From contig NZ_JABWQX020000001.1 of the NCBI RefSeq assembly GCF_014268655.2, positions 3,812,001-3,876,000 on the forward strand: a stretch of DNA of 64,000 nt. Reading direction: 5' to 3'. Each line of letters opens with the position of its first letter. The first letter of the stretch is position 1. The notes below the pieces were generated by a model. That model saw only the letters and a program-made list of their open reading frames with translations. It searched no databases and was not told the DNA's origin. The DNA comes from Pseudomonas marvdashtae (GTDB lineage: Bacteria > Pseudomonadota > Gammaproteobacteria > Pseudomonadales > Pseudomonadaceae). This document shows positions 21,868-36,235 of this stretch, piece after piece. The translations under genes and the position numbers were made by a program.

Positions 21868-22399
21868 GGGGATTTCCAGAGCCTTTGGCTAAGTGGACCG
21901 GGCAACGCATTGCCGGGCCGGGTTCAATCAGGTGCTTTTCTCAAGAGCACCCGCGTGGCACGAACGTGTGCCGTTCCGCCCCCGCCGCTCAGGTTTAAAA
22001 AGCTTAGATGCGAAGGCAGATAAAAAATTCTGTGCAACAAATTGTGAAAACGCGTCCCTTTCGTCGAATAGTACCTGAGTGCAACAGGGGGACATTCTCA
22101 TTCGAACGCGGGGACCGCCCTTCGGCGCAGGGCTGATCATACAGGGGTCTTGCGCAAAAGCGGGTGCTGAACATCATGTTACTTATCGCACTAGCATCTT
22201 TATTGTTACGTGCTTATGACAAAACGATCATTCCATCCGTGTGACGCTTTGGTTAGAACTCACCACAGGTTGGCGTCGCAACGGCGCCGACACCTTGGCT
22301 CGTCACGCCGGCAACGAGCCACCAACGGCAGAATGATTCTGCCCCGACCTCGATTGAGGTCGACGCTAAGCAACAGTCAACAAGTGAGGGCAACACCCT
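21868..22399. other. Divergent rlmL-rmf intergenic region, no gene recognised
   Basis: 532 bases with lower GC between 22000 and 22230. It must hold the promoters of rlmL and rmf. I see short AT-rich stretches but no convincing -35/-10 pair, conserved small RNA or coding frame. Confidence 0.5.
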
Positions 22400-24083: not shown

Positions 24084-24210
24084 CCTTTTGGTCATCAGCG
24101 CCCCATGCCAACGACGGAATGAGTGTCGCACTGTTTCAAAGGACAGCAGCGTCGTCGTTCGGCCTTCTTGGCCAGGACACGGCGCTTTTTTGATGTGGAA
24201 GGTGATACCG

Positions 24211-25422
24211 ATGAATGAAATTCCAGCCACGCCCCTGGCTTGGGTCAACGGCAGCGATGCCCCGGAAAAGAGCGCGGTCAATCTCGGGTTCATGGCCTTG
24301 AGCGACTGTGCCCCGCTGGTCGTCGCCGCGACCCAGGGTTTCGCCCAGCCCTACGGCCTGACCCTGAACCTCAAGCGCCAGGCGTCCTGGGCCAACCTGC
24401 GGGACAAGCTGGTCAGTGGCGAAATCGATGCCGCCCACAGCCTTTACGGCCTGATCTACGCCGTGCACCTGGGCATCGGCGGCGTCGCACCAACGGACAT
24501 GGCCGTGCTGATGGGACTCAACCAGAATGGCCAGAGCATCAACCTCTCCCATGGCCTCCAGGCCCAAGGCGTGACCAGTCCTGAGGCACTGGAACAGCAC
24601 GTGCACCAAACTCGCCCGAAACTGACCTTCGCCCAGACCTTTCCCACCGGCACCCATGCCATGTGGCTCTACTATTGGCTCGCCGCCCAGGGCATTCATC
24701 CACTGTCGGATGTCGACAGCGTGGTCGTACCGCCTCCGCAGATGATCGCGCACCTGCAAGCCGGGCGTATCGACGGATTTTGTGTCGGCGAGCCCTGGTG
24801 CGCCAGCGCGGTGAAGCAGAACCTCGGGTTTACCCTGGCGACCACCCAGACCATCTGGCCCGACCATCCGGAAAAAGTCCTCGGCTGCACCCGTGCGTTC
24901 GTCGAGCAATACCCCAATACCGCCCGGGCGCTGGTGATGGCGATCCTCGAAGCCAGCCGTTTCATCGAACAAAGCACTGAAAACCGCCGCAGCACCGCGC
25001 AATTGTTGAGCGCCCCCGAATACCTCGACGCGCCACTGGACTGCATCGAGCCGCGCCTGCTGGGCATCTACGCCGACGGCCTGGGCAATAGTTGGCAAGA
25101 TCCTCACGCCATGCGTTTTCATGGCGGCGGCGAGGTCAACCTGCCGTACCTGTCCGATGGCATGTGGTTCATTACCCAGTTCCGCCGCTGGGGCCTGTTG
25201 CGCGAAGACCCGGACTACCTGGCCGTGGCCCGGCAAGTCCAGCAGCTCGGGTTGTATCGGGAGGCCGCCGAGGCGCTGGGCGTTTCATCGCCGCGCCAGG
25301 ACATGCGCAGCAGTCAACTGATCGACGGCACCACCTGGGACGGTTCCGACCCGGCCGGGTATGCCCGCGGCTTCAAACTGCACGCCCTGAGCGATGCGGC
25401 TCCCCTTCTCGCCAGCCGCTGA
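24211..25422 (+). CDS. nasS: Nitrate sensor NasS (NrtA/CmpA-like, cytoplasmic)
   Basis: Senses nitrate or nitrite and holds NasT inactive when none is present. It is 403 aa with the fold of the nitrate-binding proteins NrtA/CmpA (LGFMALSDCAPLVVAATQGFA, then SGEIDAAHSLYGLIYAVHLG), but it begins MNEIPATPLAWVNGSD with no signal peptide. This separates the sensor from periplasmic transport proteins. The ATG at 24211 follows GGAAGGTGA. The gene ends 14 bases before nasT. Confidence 0.9.
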   Translation: MNEIPATPLAWVNGSDAPEKSAVNLGFMALSDCAPLVVAATQGFAQPYGLTLNLKRQASWANLRDKLVSGEIDAAHSLYGLIYAVHLGIGGVAPTDMAVLMGLNQNGQSINLSHGLQAQGVTSPEALEQHVHQTRPKLTFAQTFPTGTHAMWLYYWLAAQGIHPLSDVDSVVVPPPQMIAHLQAGRIDGFCVGEPWCASAVKQNLGFTLATTQTIWPDHPEKVLGCTRAFVEQYPNTARALVMAILEASRFIEQSTENRRSTAQLLSAPEYLDAPLDCIEPRLLGIYADGLGNSWQDPHAMRFHGGGEVNLPYLSDGMWFITQFRRWGLLREDPDYLAVARQVQQLGLYREAAEALGVSSPRQDMRSSQLIDGTTWDGSDPAGYARGFKLHALSDAAPLLASR

Positions 25423-25436
25423 CAGGAGCCACGACC

Positions 25437-26012
25437 ATGCTGCGTATCCTGCTGATCAACGACACTGCGAAAAAAGTCGGCCGCCTAAAGGCTGCCTTGA
25501 TTGAAGCCGGGTTCGAAGTGATCGACGAATCCGGATTGACCATCGACCTGCCCGCGCGCGTCGAAACAGTGCGTCCGGACGTCATCCTGATCGATACCGA
25601 GTCACCCGGCCGCGATGTGATGGAACAAGTGGTGCTGGTCAGTCGCGACCAGCCACGACCGATCGTCATGTTTACCGACGAGCACGACCCGGATGTGATG
25701 CGTCAGGCGATCAAGTCGGGTGTTAGCGCCTACATTGTCGAAGGCATCCATGCCGCGCGGCTGCAACCGATCCTCGACGTCGCCATGGCCCGCTTCGAAA
25801 GCGACCAGGCCCTGCGCGCCCAGCTCCTGGCCCGGGACCAGCAACTGGCCGAACGCAAACGCATCGAACTGGCCAAGGGCATGCTGATGAAGATGAAGGA
25901 CTGCAACGAGGAACAGGCCTACACCCTGATGCGCCGCCAAGCCATGAGCCGCCAGCAGAAGCTGATCCAGGTGGCGGAGCAGATCATCGCAATGAATGAG
26001 TTGCTGGGCTGA
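25437..26012 (+). CDS. nasT: ANTAR-domain antiterminator NasT
   Basis: RNA-binding regulator that lets polymerase pass the leader terminators of nitrate genes once NasS releases it. It is 191 aa. A receiver-like domain (about 1-120, with the Asp of VILIDTESPG) is followed by a C-terminal ANTAR three-helix domain (about 130-188, RIELAKGMLMKMKDCNEEQA). The start MLRILLINDT at 25437 follows CAGGAG; the longer frame upstream is an artefact. Matching RNA targets are present at 26100-26186 and 29330-29419. Confidence 0.93.
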   Translation: MLRILLINDTAKKVGRLKAALIEAGFEVIDESGLTIDLPARVETVRPDVILIDTESPGRDVMEQVVLVSRDQPRPIVMFTDEHDPDVMRQAIKSGVSAYIVEGIHAARLQPILDVAMARFESDQALRAQLLARDQQLAERKRIELAKGMLMKMKDCNEEQAYTLMRRQAMSRQQKLIQVAEQIIAMNELLG

Positions 26013-26068: not shown

Positions 26069-26086
26069 TTGGCACAGATCTCGCTT
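26069..26086 (+). promoter_or_regulatory. Sigma-54 promoter of nasA
   Basis: TTGGCACAGATCTCGCTT, with GG at 26071 and GC at 26083, 10 bases apart. The predicted start near 26095 lies just ahead of the first leader hairpin. Confidence 0.78.
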
Positions 26087-26099
26087 AAGCAACTCCACA

Positions 26100-26186
26100 G
26101 GTAACCAACGGCGGTTGCCCCACCTACGACAAAGACGTCGCACATCCTCTTCGCCTCCGGGTGCTCAGGGTTGCGGCGTTTTTTTG
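26100..26186 (+). promoter_or_regulatory. NasT (ANTAR) antitermination leader of nasA
   Basis: Hairpin P1: GGTAACC/GGTTGCC, loop AACGGC (26107-26112). Hairpin P2: CGAC/GTCG, loop AAAGAC (26131-26136). Both loops are six bases with A first and G fourth, the ANTAR recognition pattern. The 3' arm of P2 is shared with the 5' arm of a terminator, CGTCGCA (26136-26142) with TGCGGCG (26172-26178), followed by seven T. P2 and the terminator are mutually exclusive, so NasT binding would allow read-through. Confidence 0.85.
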
Positions 26187-27500: not shown

Positions 27501-29171
27501 ATGAGCCTGCAACTGAGTTTCGCCGAAGCCAGCGCTATCGGCCCACGGGAGGAAAACCAGGACGCCCTGCGCCTGGTCACCCCGGCCCCGGCGCTGGCCG
27601 CCAGCAAAGGTTACCTGTTCGCCATCGCCGACGGCGTGAGCCAATGCGCCGACGGCGGATTGGCCGCCCGTTCGACCTTGCAGGCCCTGGCCCTGGATTA
27701 CTATTCCACCCCGCAGACCTGGGGCGTGGCCCAAGCGCTCGACCGGCTGCTGCTGGCTCAAAATCGCTGGTTGCAGGCCAACGGTGGCGGGCAACCGCTG
27801 CTCACCACCGTCAGCGCGCTGGTCCTGCGGGGTCGACGCTTCACCCTCGCCCATGTCGGCGATTGCCGGGTCTATCGCTGGCACGCCGATCATCTGCAAC
27901 GGGTCAGCGAAGACCATGTCTGGGAACAACAGGGCATGCAACATGTGCTCAAGCGTGCCCTGGGCTTGGATCAGCATCTGATCCTGGACTTCCTCGACGG
28001 TGAATTGCGCACCGATGAAACCTTCGTGCTGCTCAGCGACGGCGTCTGGGCGGTTTTGGGGGATACGGCCATTGCCGGCATCCTTCGTGACCAGCCGGAC
28101 CTGAATCTCGCGGCGCAGACCTTGGTCAACGCCGCGCATCTGGCCGGGAGCCAGGACAACGCCAGTGCCCTGCTGGTGCGCGTCGATGCCTTGGGCGAAG
28201 CCAGCATCGGCGATGCGCTGATCCAATTGCAGCAATGGCCCCTGCCGCCTGCGTTGAAACCGGGCCAAGTGTTCGAGGGCTGGCAGATCGAGAGCCTGCT
28301 CGGCCAGAGCCAGCAGTCGTTGCTCTACCGGGTCCACGACGGTCAGGGCCAACCCTGGCTGCTGAAAACCTTGCCCGTGCACCTGCGAGACGATAGCCGG
28401 GCCGGGCAAGCGTTATTGTCGGAAGAATGGTTTCTCAAGCGCGTCGCGGGCAGGCAGTTTCCGGAAGTGCACGGCGTGCCCCAGCGCCAGCATTTGTACT
28501 ACGTGATGCGCGAATACCAGGGCGAGACCCTGGCCGAGCTGTTCAGCCAGGGCGGGCCGTTGCCCCTGGCCCAGTGGCTGGACCTGGCGCAACGGCTGGT
28601 ACGGGCGGTCGGCCTACTGCATCGCCGGCAGATTTATCACCGCGACATCAAGCCGGAAAACCTGCACCTGGGCGACGACGGGGAATTGCGCTTGCTGGAT
28701 TTCGGCTTGGCGTACTGCCCGGGCCTGTCCGAAGACCAGGCCAACGTCTTGCCCGGCACGCCCAGCTACATCGCTCCGGAGGCGTTCGGCGGCACATTGC
28801 CTACGGCGCAGCAGGATTTGTACGCCGTCGGCGTGACGCTGTATTACCTGCTGACCGGGCATTATCCCTACGGCGAAATCGAAGCCTTCCAACGTCCGCG
28901 CTTTGGCGTGTCGGTGAGTGCTCATCGTTATCGGCCCGACCTGCCTGAATGGCTTGGACTAAGCCTGGATCGCGCGGTGGCGGCGGACCCAGCTCAGCGC
29001 TTTGAAACCGCCGAAGAATGGTTATTGCTACTGGAACAAGGCGAGCGCCGCAGCTTGAGCGTAAGGCCTCGGCCGCTGCTGGAACGAGAGCCGCTGAAGG
29101 TCTGGCGGACGTTGGCGCTGGGGTCGTTGGTGGTGAATGTTGTGCTGTTGTTTCTGGTTTTTCATTCATGA
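27501..29171 (+). CDS. PP2C phosphatase - Ser/Thr protein kinase fusion
   Basis: Two opposing enzymes in one 556-aa protein. The N-terminal PP2C-type phosphatase (about 1-235) has EENQDAL, IADGVSQCADGG, HVGDCRVYRW, LLSDGVW and SQDNASALLVR, the metal-binding aspartates of the family. A Hanks-type kinase domain (about 255-515) follows, with HRDIKPENLHL near 379, DFGLA near 400 and GTPSYIAPEAF. A C-terminal hydrophobic segment (about 535-555) suggests membrane anchoring facing the cytoplasm. It is wedged between nasA and nirB and is probably cotranscribed with nasA. Target proteins are unknown; NasA, beside it, is an obvious candidate but unproven. Confidence 0.92.
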   Translation: MSLQLSFAEASAIGPREENQDALRLVTPAPALAASKGYLFAIADGVSQCADGGLAARSTLQALALDYYSTPQTWGVAQALDRLLLAQNRWLQANGGGQPLLTTVSALVLRGRRFTLAHVGDCRVYRWHADHLQRVSEDHVWEQQGMQHVLKRALGLDQHLILDFLDGELRTDETFVLLSDGVWAVLGDTAIAGILRDQPDLNLAAQTLVNAAHLAGSQDNASALLVRVDALGEASIGDALIQLQQWPLPPALKPGQVFEGWQIESLLGQSQQSLLYRVHDGQGQPWLLKTLPVHLRDDSRAGQALLSEEWFLKRVAGRQFPEVHGVPQRQHLYYVMREYQGETLAELFSQGGPLPLAQWLDLAQRLVRAVGLLHRRQIYHRDIKPENLHLGDDGELRLLDFGLAYCPGLSEDQANVLPGTPSYIAPEAFGGTLPTAQQDLYAVGVTLYYLLTGHYPYGEIEAFQRPRFGVSVSAHRYRPDLPEWLGLSLDRAVAADPAQRFETAEEWLLLLEQGERRSLSVRPRPLLEREPLKVWRTLALGSLVVNVVLLFLVFHS

Positions 29172-29285
29172 CACCAACCCCACCGCGCTCCATTACCGGG
29201 CAACACGCTTTGATTCGGTGCAATAACTCCCCCTCCAACGCGCCCGCCCCTCGCTTGCCCCAATAAATCCGGGTCCCCGAGCCAC

Positions 29286-29303
29286 TTGGCACAACCACTG
29301 CAT
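29286..29303 (+). promoter_or_regulatory. Sigma-54 promoter of nirB
   Basis: TTGGCACAACCACTGCAT, with GG at 29288 and GC at 29300, 10 bases apart. The predicted transcription start is near 29312. Confidence 0.8.
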
Positions 29304-29329
29304 AACCTCTCTCACCATACATAAAGCAA

Positions 29330-29419
29330 CGCCTCCAACGATGAAGGCGGTGCTTCCCGAGAGAACGGGACCAGGACAAAGGCGTCCTCGCTAGGCCACT
29401 AGCGAGACGCCTTTTTTTG
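29330..29419 (+). promoter_or_regulatory. NasT (ANTAR) antitermination leader of nirB, three hexaloops
   Basis: Three successive six-base loops have A first and G fourth. CGCCT/AGGCG has loop AACGAT (29337-29342, one mismatch in the stem). TCCCG/CGGGA has loop AGAGAA (29360-29365). AGGAC/GTCCT has loop AAAGGC (29378-29383). The last hairpin overlaps the 5' arm of a long terminator, AGGCGT and CTCGCTAG (29380-29394) pairing with CTAGCGAG and ACGCCT (29399-29412), followed by a T run. The last two are separated by only two bases and fit the paired P1-P2 element; the first is extra. Confidence 0.85.
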
Positions 29420-29488: not shown

Positions 29489-31942
29489 ATGAAAAAACTC
29501 AAACTGGTAATGATCGGCAACGGCATGGCCGGGGTTCGCACCCTCGAGGAACTGCTCAAGCTGAGCAACGAGCTCTACGACATCACGGTATTCGGCGCCG
29601 AGCCTCACACCAATTACAACCGCATCCTGCTGTCGCCGGTGCTGGCCGGGGAGCAAACGTTCGAAGACATCGTGCTCAACGACCTGAGCTGGTACTTGGA
29701 AAACAACATCAAGTTGCTGCTCAACCGCAAAGTCGTGGAGATCGATCGCATCAAGCGCCGGGTCATCGCCGAAGACGGTAGCGAAGCCGAATACGACCGC
29801 CTGCTGATCGCCACCGGCTCTACGCCGTTCATCTTGCCGATCCCCGGCAACACCCTGGACGGCGTGATTGGCTACCGCGACATCGCCGACACCCAAGCGA
29901 TGATCGACACCGCCAAGACTCACAAGCACGCCGTGGTGATCGGCGGCGGCTTGCTGGGCCTGGAAGCGGCCAACGGCCTGAAGTTGCGCGGCATGGACGT
30001 GACCGTCGTGCACATCGGTGAATGGCTGTTGGAACGGCAACTGGACAAGACCAGCGGCCAACTGCTGCAAACCGCCCTGGAAAATCGTGGCCTCAAGTTC
30101 CGCCTGTGTGAACAGACCCAGGCCCTGCACGACGCCGGCAATGGCCGGGTCGGCTCGGTACAGTTCAAGAACGGCGACATCATCCCCGCCGACCTGGTGG
30201 TGATGGCCGCCGGCATCCGCCCCAACACCGAACTTGCGGAAAAATCCGGCATCCCGTGCAACCGCGGGATCCTGGTCAACGACACGATGCAAACCTACGA
30301 TCCGCGCGTCTATGCCATCGGCGAGTGCGCCAGCCACCGTGGCACGGCTTATGGCTTGGTGGCCCCGTTGTTCGAACAAGCCAAGGTCTGCGCCAATCAC
30401 CTCGCGCAACTGGGCTTCGCCACTTACAAGGGCTCGGTCACGTCGACCAAGTTGAAAGTCACCGGCATCGACCTGTTCTCCGCCGGGGATTTCATGGGTG
30501 GCGAAGGCACCGAGACCATCACCCTTTCCGACCCGATCGGTGGCGTCTACAAAAAACTGGTGATCAAGGATGACGTGCTGGTCGGCGCCTGCCTGTACGG
30601 CGACACAGCGGATGGCGGCTGGTATTTCCGCCAGATCCGTGAGAACCACGCCATCAGCGAGATCCGCGATCACCTGATGTTTGGGGAAAACGCTTTAGGC
30701 GACGTAGGCCACCAAGGCCAGGACAAAGCCATGAGCATGGCCGACACGGCCGAAGTCTGCGGCTGCAACGGCGTGTGCAAGGGCACCATCGTCAAGGCCA
30801 TCCAGGAACACGGGCTATTCAGCGTCGATGACGTGAAAAAACACACCAAGGCCGCCAGTTCCTGCGGCTCCTGCGCCGGCCTGGTGGAACAGATCCTGAT
30901 CAACACCGTGGGCGGTGCGGCGGACGTCAAGCCGAAAAGCGAAAAAGCCATCTGCGGCTGCAGCGACCTCAACCACGGCCAGATCCGCCAGGCGATCCGC
31001 GACCAGCACCTGCTGACCATCGCCGGGACCATGAGCTATTTGAACTGGCGCACTCCCAACGGCTGCGCGACGTGCCGCCCGGCCCTGAACTATTACCTGA
31101 TCTCCACCTGGCCAGGCGAAGCCCAGGACGACCCGCAGTCGCGCCTGATCAACGAGCGGGCCCACGCCAACATCCAGAAAGACGGCACCTATTCGGTGGT
31201 TCCGCGGATGTGGGGCGGCGTGACCAACCCTTCCGAACTGCGGCGCATCGCCGACGTGGCCGACAAGTACAACGTGCCGATGGTCAAGGTCACCGGCGGG
31301 CAGCGCATCGATCTGCTGGGCATCAAGAAGCAGGATTTGCCCGGCGTGTGGAAAGACCTCGACATGCCGTCCGGCCACGCCTACGGCAAGTCCATCCGCA
31401 CCGTGAAGACCTGCGTTGGCAGCGAGTTCTGCCGCTTCGGCACGCAGAACTCCACCCAGCTTGGCATCGAGCTCGAGCACGATCTGTTCAATATGTGGTC
31501 GCCGCACAAGGTGAAGCTGGCCGTCTCCGGTTGCCCACGCAACTGCTCGGAAGCCGGCATCAAGGACGTGGGAATTATCGGCGTCGATTCGGGCTGGGAG
31601 ATGTACATCGGCGGCAACGGCGGGATCAAGACCGAGGTCGCCGAGTTCTTCGTCAAGCTCAAGACCGCCGAAGAAGTCCGCGAATACAACGGTGCTTTCC
31701 TGCAGCTGTACCGCGAGGAAGCCTTTTACCTGGAACGCACCGTGCACTACATGCAACGGGTCGGCATGGAACACATCAAGAAAGCCGTGTTGGAAGACCC
31801 GGAGCGGCGCAAGGCCCTTCATGAACGCCTGAAGTTTTCCTTGTCGCTGGAACAAGACCCGTGGAAGCAACGCCTGGAACAGCCTCAGCTGAAAAAAGAA
31901 TTCGAAGTCATCCCTGTGAAGACCTTGGAGGTGCCGGCATGA
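29489..31942 (+). CDS. nirB: Assimilatory nitrite reductase [NAD(P)H], large subunit NirB
   Basis: Cytoplasmic siroheme enzyme reducing nitrite to ammonium. It is 817 aa. An FAD/NAD(P)H oxidoreductase half (GNGMAGVRTLEEL near 10, HAVVIGGGLLGLEAANGL near 150) is followed by BFD-like [2Fe-2S] cysteines (CGCNGVCKG, SSCGSCAG). The siroheme/[4Fe-4S] half has TCVGSEFCRFGTQ (C-x5-C) and GCPRNCSEAG (C-x3-C). The start MKKLKLVMIGNGM at 29489 follows GGAG; upstream in-frame codons were excluded. It overlaps nirD by 4 bases. Confidence 0.96.
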   Translation: MKKLKLVMIGNGMAGVRTLEELLKLSNELYDITVFGAEPHTNYNRILLSPVLAGEQTFEDIVLNDLSWYLENNIKLLLNRKVVEIDRIKRRVIAEDGSEAEYDRLLIATGSTPFILPIPGNTLDGVIGYRDIADTQAMIDTAKTHKHAVVIGGGLLGLEAANGLKLRGMDVTVVHIGEWLLERQLDKTSGQLLQTALENRGLKFRLCEQTQALHDAGNGRVGSVQFKNGDIIPADLVVMAAGIRPNTELAEKSGIPCNRGILVNDTMQTYDPRVYAIGECASHRGTAYGLVAPLFEQAKVCANHLAQLGFATYKGSVTSTKLKVTGIDLFSAGDFMGGEGTETITLSDPIGGVYKKLVIKDDVLVGACLYGDTADGGWYFRQIRENHAISEIRDHLMFGENALGDVGHQGQDKAMSMADTAEVCGCNGVCKGTIVKAIQEHGLFSVDDVKKHTKAASSCGSCAGLVEQILINTVGGAADVKPKSEKAICGCSDLNHGQIRQAIRDQHLLTIAGTMSYLNWRTPNGCATCRPALNYYLISTWPGEAQDDPQSRLINERAHANIQKDGTYSVVPRMWGGVTNPSELRRIADVADKYNVPMVKVTGGQRIDLLGIKKQDLPGVWKDLDMPSGHAYGKSIRTVKTCVGSEFCRFGTQNSTQLGIELEHDLFNMWSPHKVKLAVSGCPRNCSEAGIKDVGIIGVDSGWEMYIGGNGGIKTEVAEFFVKLKTAEEVREYNGAFLQLYREEAFYLERTVHYMQRVGMEHIKKAVLEDPERRKALHERLKFSLSLEQDPWKQRLEQPQLKKEFEVIPVKTLEVPA

Positions 31943-34983: not shown

Positions 34984-35739
34984 ATGAACGCAAAAGTCTG
35001 GCTGGTGGGTGCAGGTCCTGGCGACCCTGAATTGCTGACCCTCAAAGCCGTGCGCGCCTTGGGCGAGGCGGATGTGGTGTTGATCGACGATCTGGTCAAC
35101 GTCGCGGTGCTGGAGCATTGCCCCGCTGCACGCGTCATCGCCGTGGGCAAGCGCGGCGGCTGCCGGTCCACGCCACAGGCATTCATTCACCGGCTGATGT
35201 TGCGTTATGCCCGCCAAGGCAAATGCGTGGTGCGCCTCAAGGGCGGCGATCCGTGCATCTTCGGTCGCGGCGGTGAAGAGGCGCAGTGGTTGCGCGAGCA
35301 TGGGGTCGAAGTGGAATTGGTCAACGGCATCACCGCCGGCCTCGCGGGCGCCACCCAATGCGATATTTCACTGACCCTGCGCGGAATCGCCCGGGGCGTG
35401 ACCCTGGTCACGGCCCACACTCAGGACGGCAGCAGCCTGAACTGGCAAGCCCTGGCGCAAAGCGGGACCACCCTGGTGGTGTACATGGGCGTGGCGAAAC
35501 TGAGCGAGATCCGCGAGCAGTTGTTGGCCGGTGGCCTGGCGGCGGACACGCCCGTGGCCATGATCGAAAACGCCTCCCTGCCCCACCAGCGCGACTGCCG
35601 CAGCGACCTGGCCTCGATGGAAGCCGATGCCAGCGCGTTTCAACTCAAGAGCCCGGCGATCCTGGTGATTGGCGCGGTGGCCGGCGCTGCTGAACTGCCC
35701 GCCTCGCAGCGTGCCTGGGCGCGGGCGTCAGCCCTCTGA
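34984..35739 (+). CDS. cobA: Uroporphyrinogen-III C-methyltransferase (siroheme synthesis)
   Basis: SAM-dependent enzyme making precorrin-2, the precursor of the siroheme needed by NirB. It is 251 aa with the family motifs VGAGPGDPELLTLKA near 8, VRLKGGDPCIFGRGGEE near 83, and GTTLVVYMG near 165. It lacks the oxidase/ferrochelatase half of CysG, so it is the methyltransferase alone. GAGGAAAA precedes the ATG. Last gene of the nitrite/nitrate reductase operon. Confidence 0.92.
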   Translation: MNAKVWLVGAGPGDPELLTLKAVRALGEADVVLIDDLVNVAVLEHCPAARVIAVGKRGGCRSTPQAFIHRLMLRYARQGKCVVRLKGGDPCIFGRGGEEAQWLREHGVEVELVNGITAGLAGATQCDISLTLRGIARGVTLVTAHTQDGSSLNWQALAQSGTTLVVYMGVAKLSEIREQLLAGGLAADTPVAMIENASLPHQRDCRSDLASMEADASAFQLKSPAILVIGAVAGAAELPASQRAWARASAL

Positions 35740-35950: not shown

Positions 35951-36235
35951 AGGCCGCCTCGCTTTTGATTTTGATCTGGGGCGCCCCGTTAACCACGATG
36001 GCCGAACGCAGGTATTGTGGAGTGGGCATCTCGGCATGGATGCCGGGATAGCCGCGCTGGGCCATGGATGGCCCTTCGCGGCGGGCCCACGGAGCAATGC
36101 CGGAGTGAGGGCATGCCGAGCCTAAGCGAGGCACCGAGTGGTGGGGCAAGCCTTTTTTGCTTACTTTTTTTGGCGTCTGAAAAAAAGTGAGCCGCCGTAA
36201 GGGCGGAACCCTAAGTAGCCGTTACCGCAGCAATG
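35951..36235. repeat. Probable dispersed Pseudomonas repeat of unknown function
   Basis: About 285 bases bounded by REPs and without a credible gene. It ends in an A/T-run region (GCTTACTTTTTTTGGCG, then GAAAAAAAGTGAGCCGCC) whose halves form an inverted repeat with GTGAGC. I recall similar sequence recurring in P. fluorescens genomes, often wrongly annotated as small hypothetical proteins. A minus-strand frame (35949-36149, 66 codons) exists but lacks a ribosome site. Family assignment is from memory. Confidence 0.4.

Follow-up and report, generated by a model that had tools for sequence, protein, structure and literature searches.

The window, the whole stretch of 64,000 nucleotides of Pseudomonas marvdashtae DNA analysed here, carries on its + strand the gene nirB (29489..31942), assigned to the large subunit of nitrite reductase by TIGR02374 (932.9 bits) and by further NCBIfam matches. 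On the 3' side of nirB, up to position 35739, NCBIfam models identify nirD, a nasA-like nitrate reductase gene, whose matches score under their own curated cut-offs, and the uroporphyrinogen methyltransferase gene (cobA). The nirB leader is flanked by a kinase/phosphatase gene (27501-29171) on one side and by nirB on the other. An ANTAR-domain protein is encoded at 25440..26012 on the + strand, and a search of the genome with PF03861 returned a single match (G000:C1:3837839-3837988), so that the sole ANTAR protein found, and hence the one candidate for the cognate protein of an ANTAR-target antiterminator RNA, is encoded 3.3 kb upstream of the nirB leader. This protein is taken to be NasT, and we use the name nasT for its gene on that understanding. 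The preceding gene (24208..25422, + strand) encodes a substrate-binding-type protein with a weak, below-cut-off match to the SsuA family, which is presumed to be NasS because of its position beside nasT. A narK RNA (RF03032; Rfam, 26071..26141, + strand), a two-hexaloop leader, serves below as a comparator from the same genome. Other Rfam matches in the window are an rmf leader RNA (22249-22381, 110.8 bits) and TwoAYGGAY (36024-36088, 50.7 bits, model positions 45-113 of 168).

Direct reading of the nirB leader reveals the motif TTGGCAC-N6-TGCAT (29286..29303, + strand), in which GG and GC are spaced 12 nt apart, and which we take to be a sigma-54-type promoter; promoter spacing would place the RNA start near 29313. 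As the sequence-only reading had it, the promoter is followed by three hexaloops, AACGAT, AGAGAA and AAAGGC, all of them with A at position 1 and G at position 4 and each closed by a stem. The first hairpin, H1 (29324..29355, + strand; direct reading, folding and covariation), presents AACGAT at 29337-29342 on a core stem, 29330-29336/29343-29349, that has one C.A mismatch at its second pair and is continued by an outer helix, 29324-29328/29351-29355. The middle hairpin, H2 (29355..29370, + strand; reading and conservation), presents AGAGAA at 29360-29365 on the stem TCCCG/CGGGA, and H3 (29373..29388, + strand; direct reading) presents AAAGGC at 29378-29383 on the stem AGGAC/GTCCT. The loop and 3' arm of H3 form the 5' arm of an intrinsic terminator (29378..29418, + strand; predicted stem 29378-29414, T-run 29412-29418), which makes the two structures mutually exclusive; the earlier claim that the third stem overlaps a terminator arm is borne out by reading and predicted fold alike. 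Counted loop to loop, H1 and H3 are 41 nt apart. The linker between them is 23 nt from the core stem and has H2 inside it, with 5 nt between H1 and H2 and 2-4 nt between H2 and H3.

The predicted fold of RNA 29313-29418 contains H1, H2 and the terminator (-47.3 kcal/mol), and the same RNA constrained to H1, H2 and H3 reaches -35.9 kcal/mol. The terminated form is thus predicted to be favoured over the H3 form by about 11 kcal/mol, and read-through therefore needs something that holds H3. The thermodynamic fold proposed in the sequence-only reading accordingly recovered its first two hairpins and its terminator, and formed the third hairpin only when forced. None of 5000 dinucleotide shuffles of 29302-29411 contained three A1/G4 hexaloops (mean 0.08). 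On the + strand of the window, at least three such hexaloops within 60 nt occur at one further place, 24702-24745, where they overlap one another inside the coding region preceding nasT.

The leader is a member of the Rfam family P11 (RF00625), which it matches at 29275-29411, promoter motif included, with a score of 123.8 bits where the cut-off is 70. Helices for H1 and H2 are already part of the family's structure line, which shows the terminator rather than H3; Rfam types the family as a gene ('Pseudomonas sRNA P11'), and its output for P11 gives no link to an ANTAR protein. The first ~30 positions of the match (29275-29304) are sigma-54 promoter DNA and are probably untranscribed. In two overlapping samples of genomes, P11 scored above its cut-off in 178 of 298 from the genus and in 160 of 248 from the family. 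With 20.8 bits, the leader did not reach the narK RNA cut-off of 43.2, and its membership in that family was rejected. Romeo 2012, going by its title, reportedly treats antitermination in the P. aeruginosa nirBD operon, and Marogi 2024 is said to concern P11.

For the analysis of conservation, 158 loci were fetched. The H3 core matched the script pattern exactly in 156 of them, and of these 152 differed from one another; discarding near-identical rows left 85. The two loci without the exact core, L139 and L155, show GGACAAAGG. Leaders outside the NirB-anchored set described below had been found by the P11 model or by an H1/H3 pattern, so that typical ones are favoured. The H1 loop was located in the rows through the letters AA[ACT]G, with no leader dropped for lacking them, and L145 was set by hand. 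In the alignment of 85 non-redundant leaders the H1 loop keeps its closing C, A1, A2, G4 and closing G without exception, while the H1 stem has two-sided changes in 11 of 12 pairs, with 84.3% of cells paired. The whole leader structure yielded 146 two-sided cells, compared with a shuffle mean of 51 and with 18 to 32 when partners were slid. A gap-free count over 13 pairs of H1 gave 154 two-sided cells (shuffle maximum, 87) and 12 pairs with a two-sided change, a number that 10 of 500 shuffles reach. The covariation of H1 is the strongest among the three hairpins; that of H3 is silent because its stem never varies.

Since leaders in this alignment had been found with the P11 model, the count was repeated on leaders found through NirB only. 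A close NirB was present in 43 of 89 family genomes, and H1 and H3 occur together in 42 of these 43 NirB-anchored leaders, 36 by the script rule and 6 by eye. Five of the leaders read by eye have a mismatch near the H1 loop and failed the rule of three contiguous pairs, yet still show the loop and its closing C-G; the sixth, G322, has H1 and H3 and lacks the H2 hexaloop. The element is absent from G365. An order-wide NirB scan of 30 loci, which mostly returned another NirB branch, detected no hexaloop pair in the 1.5 kb upstream and two single A1/G4 hexaloops with a T-run. Of the 42 leaders with H1 and H3, 28 also possess the A1/G4 hexaloop of H2, counting G113 (L036), whose H2 hairpin carries ATAGAA.

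Because the H2 hexaloop occurs in 28 of 42 NirB-anchored leaders but H1 and H3 together in 42 of 43, we conclude that H1 and H3 are the canonical pair P1/P2, H3 being the antitermination hairpin, and that the middle H2 is an accessory hairpin. H1 has the six-base loop with A1 and G4 of the first hairpin of an ANTAR-target antiterminator RNA, and H3 has the A1/G4 hexaloop over the 5' arm of the terminator that characterizes the second. The sequence-only reading had described a putative ANTAR/NasT-type leader with one hexaloop more than the standard two-hairpin element, a description that we retain. It had also named the upstream hairpin as the extra one, perhaps present by chance, and here it was mistaken: the conservation test that it suggested for that hairpin came out in favour of H1, whose invariant loop core, covarying stem and near-universal presence led us to reject it as an extra or chance loop, and it is H2 that lineages lack. 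The view that H2 and H3 form the only canonical pair was likewise rejected.

Among the 85 non-redundant leaders, 65 have the A1/G4 hexaloop of H2, each with a gap of 39-42 nt between H1 and H3. In 16 of the other 20 the gap is still 38-42 nt, several of these keeping the H2 helix under another loop, which refutes a strict rule that a long gap needs a middle hexaloop. In the NirB-anchored set, leaders without the hexaloop show a tetraloop, a loop of some other length, an extended insert or a deletion. H2, unlike H1, is missing from several lineages, including whole clades. In L145, L221 and L222 a longer insert stands in place of the H2 loop and the CCCG/CGGG helix is retained. For the H2 stem, two-sided changes affect 4 of 5 pairs in the 85-leader alignment and all 5 pairs on 72 leaders, a result that none of 500 shuffles reached. 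Spacing is narrowly distributed in these 72 leaders, with H2 and H3 separated by 17-18 nt in 69 and H1 and H2 by 22-24 nt in 70 (23 nt in the leader studied here).

Loop changes were counted by parsimony on a tree built from the nirB coding stretch, which covers 105 of 115 loci, the 10 loci without a usable nirB stretch being left out. In the 102 leaders with the hairpin, positions 1-6 of the H2 loop changed 4, 17, 8, 2, 1 and 5 times, respectively. With 2, 1 and 17 changes, G4 and A5 are the most constrained positions and position 2 is the freest, and a nearly fixed G4 beside a drifting position 2 favours recognition of the loop over a mere spacer. Against recognition stand the still firmer fixation of A5, the lineages that lack the A1/G4 loop, and the 4 changes at A1, a number similar to the 5 at position 6. 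The A1/G4 state itself underwent 8 changes on the tree and is absent in 9 of 105 loci. A5 of the H2 loop (29364 in the window, and its counterparts in relatives), with its one tree change, is a position that the ANTAR rules do not name; they name A1 and G4. The H2 hairpin is real, and it is a putative NasT site.

The narK RNA of the window carries the hexaloops AACGGC (26107-26112) and AAAGAC (26131-26136). The Rfam narK RNA looks like a two-hexaloop ANTAR/NasT element of which Rfam draws the first hairpin only, and some family genomes have up to five matches to it. We compared the best-scoring 30 loci, the window site among them (L161-L190), 29 of which have the anchor. Their loops are AACGGC-like and then AAAGRC, a pair that the H1 and H3 loops of the nirB leader resemble. 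Exactly one upstream loop, 23-25 nt away, was found in 27 of the 29 leaders, and the remaining 2 have the same loop on a shorter stem; none of these 29 best-scoring matches has a middle loop. A pattern scan of named genomes returned at least 120 stretches, 98 of those listed having an H1-type stem. Among the matches listed, a middle hexaloop is present in 41 of 48 from Pseudomonadaceae and absent in 47 of 50 from elsewhere. The three others that have one are L244, a Pseudomonadales MAG, and L307 and L336, in which the loop closer to H3 is probably the true P1. In 25 of the 27 Comamonadaceae among the matches listed the loops are 25-31 nt apart, with no middle loop in any of these 25; 25 of the 27 lack the T-run by the criterion used, and all are pattern matches and not proven leaders. 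Some matches listed from outside the family, known from sequence pattern alone, combine gaps of 41-54 nt with the absence of a middle loop. With kinship ignored, long gaps and middle hexaloops tend to go together.

The genome has a second nirB, at G000:C1:2776976. Its leader (L360; G000:C1:2776500-2777020) contains a promoter-like TGGCAC-TGCA site upstream, the hexaloop AACGAT, AAAGAC 81 nt on, and then a T-run; it also has a middle hexaloop with G4 and with G at position 1. Rfam assigned it to no family at cut-off, P11 and narK included. A stretch similar to this second leader was found in 52 of 119 genus genomes, in many of them over the last hairpin and terminator only. Among the best 30 loci, 28 show the pattern and give 27 unique leaders; L385 and L388 were left out. 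In 26 of the 27 unique leaders a middle hairpin carries a hexaloop that lies 33-36 nt ahead of the last loop; across these 26, G4 and the closing C-G never vary, and position 1 is split evenly between A (13) and G (13). Gaps are 70-87 nt in the leaders with a middle hexaloop, and the one leader without it has the shortest, 63 nt. Covariation in the middle stem of the 27 unique leaders does not rise above shuffles. In L366, L368, L370 and L377 the middle CAGGC[ATAGAC]GTCTG nearly copies the last CAGGC[AAAGAC]GCCTG, as if by local duplication.

We regard the nirB leader as a real and conserved three-hexaloop variant of what is, by prediction, an ANTAR antiterminator leader. The control would be nitrate-responsive transcription antitermination of the ANTAR class, with NasT as the presumed reader. 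Transcription would begin at the sigma-54 promoter; H1 would form first and recruit NasT as the canonical P1, and NasT would then hold H3 before the terminator closes, allowing polymerase to continue into nirB. Without free NasT, the terminator would form and P11 RNA would be released. In Paracoccus, according to the accessible portion of the report, nitrate frees NasT from NasS and NasT binds leader RNA (PMC3795266). Our best guess for H2 is an extra NasT contact that would relay the protein from H1 to H3 across the gap of 41 nt, compared with 23-25 nt in narK.

Work on other ANTAR systems, as far as the accessible text of each paper goes, bears on such a step. EutV binds hexaloops singly, and a step from one hexaloop to the following one has been proposed for it; it contacts G4 and cannot touch both hexaloops of one RNA at once, and a 20-nt extension harms antitermination (PMC8934654). 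The eut linkers are 5-12 nt, a 14-nt linker harms antitermination, and a 3-nt linker failed in eutP (PMC3369931). Linkers of 2-25 nt are given in the accessible description of an actinobacterial ANTAR-target set. SELEX with NasR returned hexaloops with A1, G4 and a closing C-G (PMC7496416). By analogy, the H2-H3 linker of 2-4 nt, about as short as the failing eutP linker, may speak against a relay. The middle G4 hexaloop that the second nirB leader has of its own supports it, though G at position 1 in 13 of 26 such leaders and the lack of covariation above shuffles in their middle stem count against it, and the 16 of 20 leaders that keep the 38-42 nt gap without an A1/G4 middle loop indicate that a relay is not strictly required.

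An intermediate dock is the simplest role for H2, one supported by the tendency, uncorrected for kinship, of long gaps to contain a middle hexaloop, and on balance we lean towards a NasT antitermination leader in which the middle hexaloop would act as an accessory docking or relay site. If H2 were instead purely structural, a folded spacer drawing H1 nearer to H3 and stopping the 3' arm of H2 (GGGAC) from pairing with the 3' arm of H3, its ANTAR-like loop would be incidental or ancestral. The CCCG/CGGG helix kept in several leaders despite a lost G4, an altered size or an insert fits that account, as does the gap retained in those 16 of 20 leaders; H1 is also somewhat stronger on average where the A1/G4 middle loop is lacking (mean -17.1 versus -15.0 kcal/mol, p 0.012, kinship ignored). 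Against a spacer, G4 of H2 is kept while position 2 varies freely, the six-base size is retained in most leaders, and the second nirB leader likewise has a middle G4 hexaloop; we consider a pure spacer rather improbable, if worth keeping in view. The idea that H1 is a chance or minor extra loop and that H2 and H3 are the true pair can appeal to their adjacency and to A1/G4 in both, but it is contradicted by the invariant H1 loop core and the 11 of 12 covarying pairs, by the absence of H2, not H1, from whole clades, and by the likeness of the H1 and H3 loops to the narK pair; we give it almost no credence.

The released RNA offers a further role. If P11 with H1 and H2, 23 nt apart like the narK pair, withheld NasT from other leaders, H2 would exist to complete an H1-H2 pair, a situation comparable to that of EutX/Rli55 and EutV. 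In line with such a sponge, of the 65 leaders with the H2 hexaloop, 64 have both H1 and H2 in the predicted fold of their terminated RNA, and none has H3; the H1-H2 spacing of 22-24 nt in 70 of 72 leaders is close to the 23-25 nt between P1 and P2 of narK; and, in the accessible portions of the respective papers, EutX/Rli55 is mentioned as a sequestering RNA (PMC8934654) and expression of P11 as a small RNA is reported (PMC12080996). The benefit is doubtful, since the sponge would be most abundant when NasS already holds NasT, and lineages without the H2 hexaloop exist. We therefore consider the sponge unlikely as the reason for H2. A combined scheme, in which NasT would be loaded at H1, passed over H2 and parked on H3 along a chain of hexaloops, with released P11 as a sponge coupling the nirB and narK leaders, is speculative, and we would not expect it to hold in full. 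If chain and sponge were both true, P11 would be an ANTAR decoy by origin, and if the chain were true, the second nirB leader, with a middle G4 hexaloop of its own, would exemplify it independently.

For the P11 small RNA, the leader would also supply a concrete mechanism within the bacterium. As stated in the accessible portions of the reports, P11 alters C. elegans behaviour across generations (PMC10977744, PMC12080996), an effect reported by others as not robust (PMC11942167). No paper joining P11 to NasT hexaloops was among the matches listed in a literature search outside which subscription papers mostly fell, and a search for ANTAR leaders with three or tandem hairpins likewise listed no paper joining P11 to NasT. 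In the EutV structure, as described in the accessible text, a single ANTAR dimer cannot touch two hexaloops at once, which raises the question of how it makes use of both. The third loop within the gap, the two-loop leader in the same genome and the relatives without a middle loop together make the EutV-type proposal testable.

Among the closest known systems is P11 (RF00625), a P. aeruginosa small RNA, which the nirB leader matches by its score of 123.8 bits and its H1 and H2 helices. The narK RNA is alike in its promoter-like 5' end, its AACGGC hairpin, its AAAGRC hairpin before a terminator and its place beside nasT; it differs in having two hexaloops, 23-25 nt apart, with no middle one among the best 29 leaders. 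The nasA leader of Paracoccus denitrificans is alike in that NasT binds the leader RNA there (PMC3795266), as NasT is presumed to do here. Two hairpins, HI and HII, were mutated in that leader (PMC5424462), and 'a series of regulatory hairpins', their number not given, is mentioned in PMC3795266; neither paper mentions a middle hexaloop in its accessible portion. In the accessible text of PMC3369931, PMC3369936, PMC7496416, PMC8934654 and PMC8164766, the ANTAR element consists of two hairpins. As far as these descriptions extend, the eut leaders of Enterococcus (EutV), nasF of Klebsiella (NasR) and amiE (AmiR) share with the nirB leader A1/G4 hexaloops, a closing C-G, a second hairpin overlapping the terminator and an ANTAR regulator, whereas the nirB leader has three hexaloops, with its obligatory pair 41 nt apart and the third between them.
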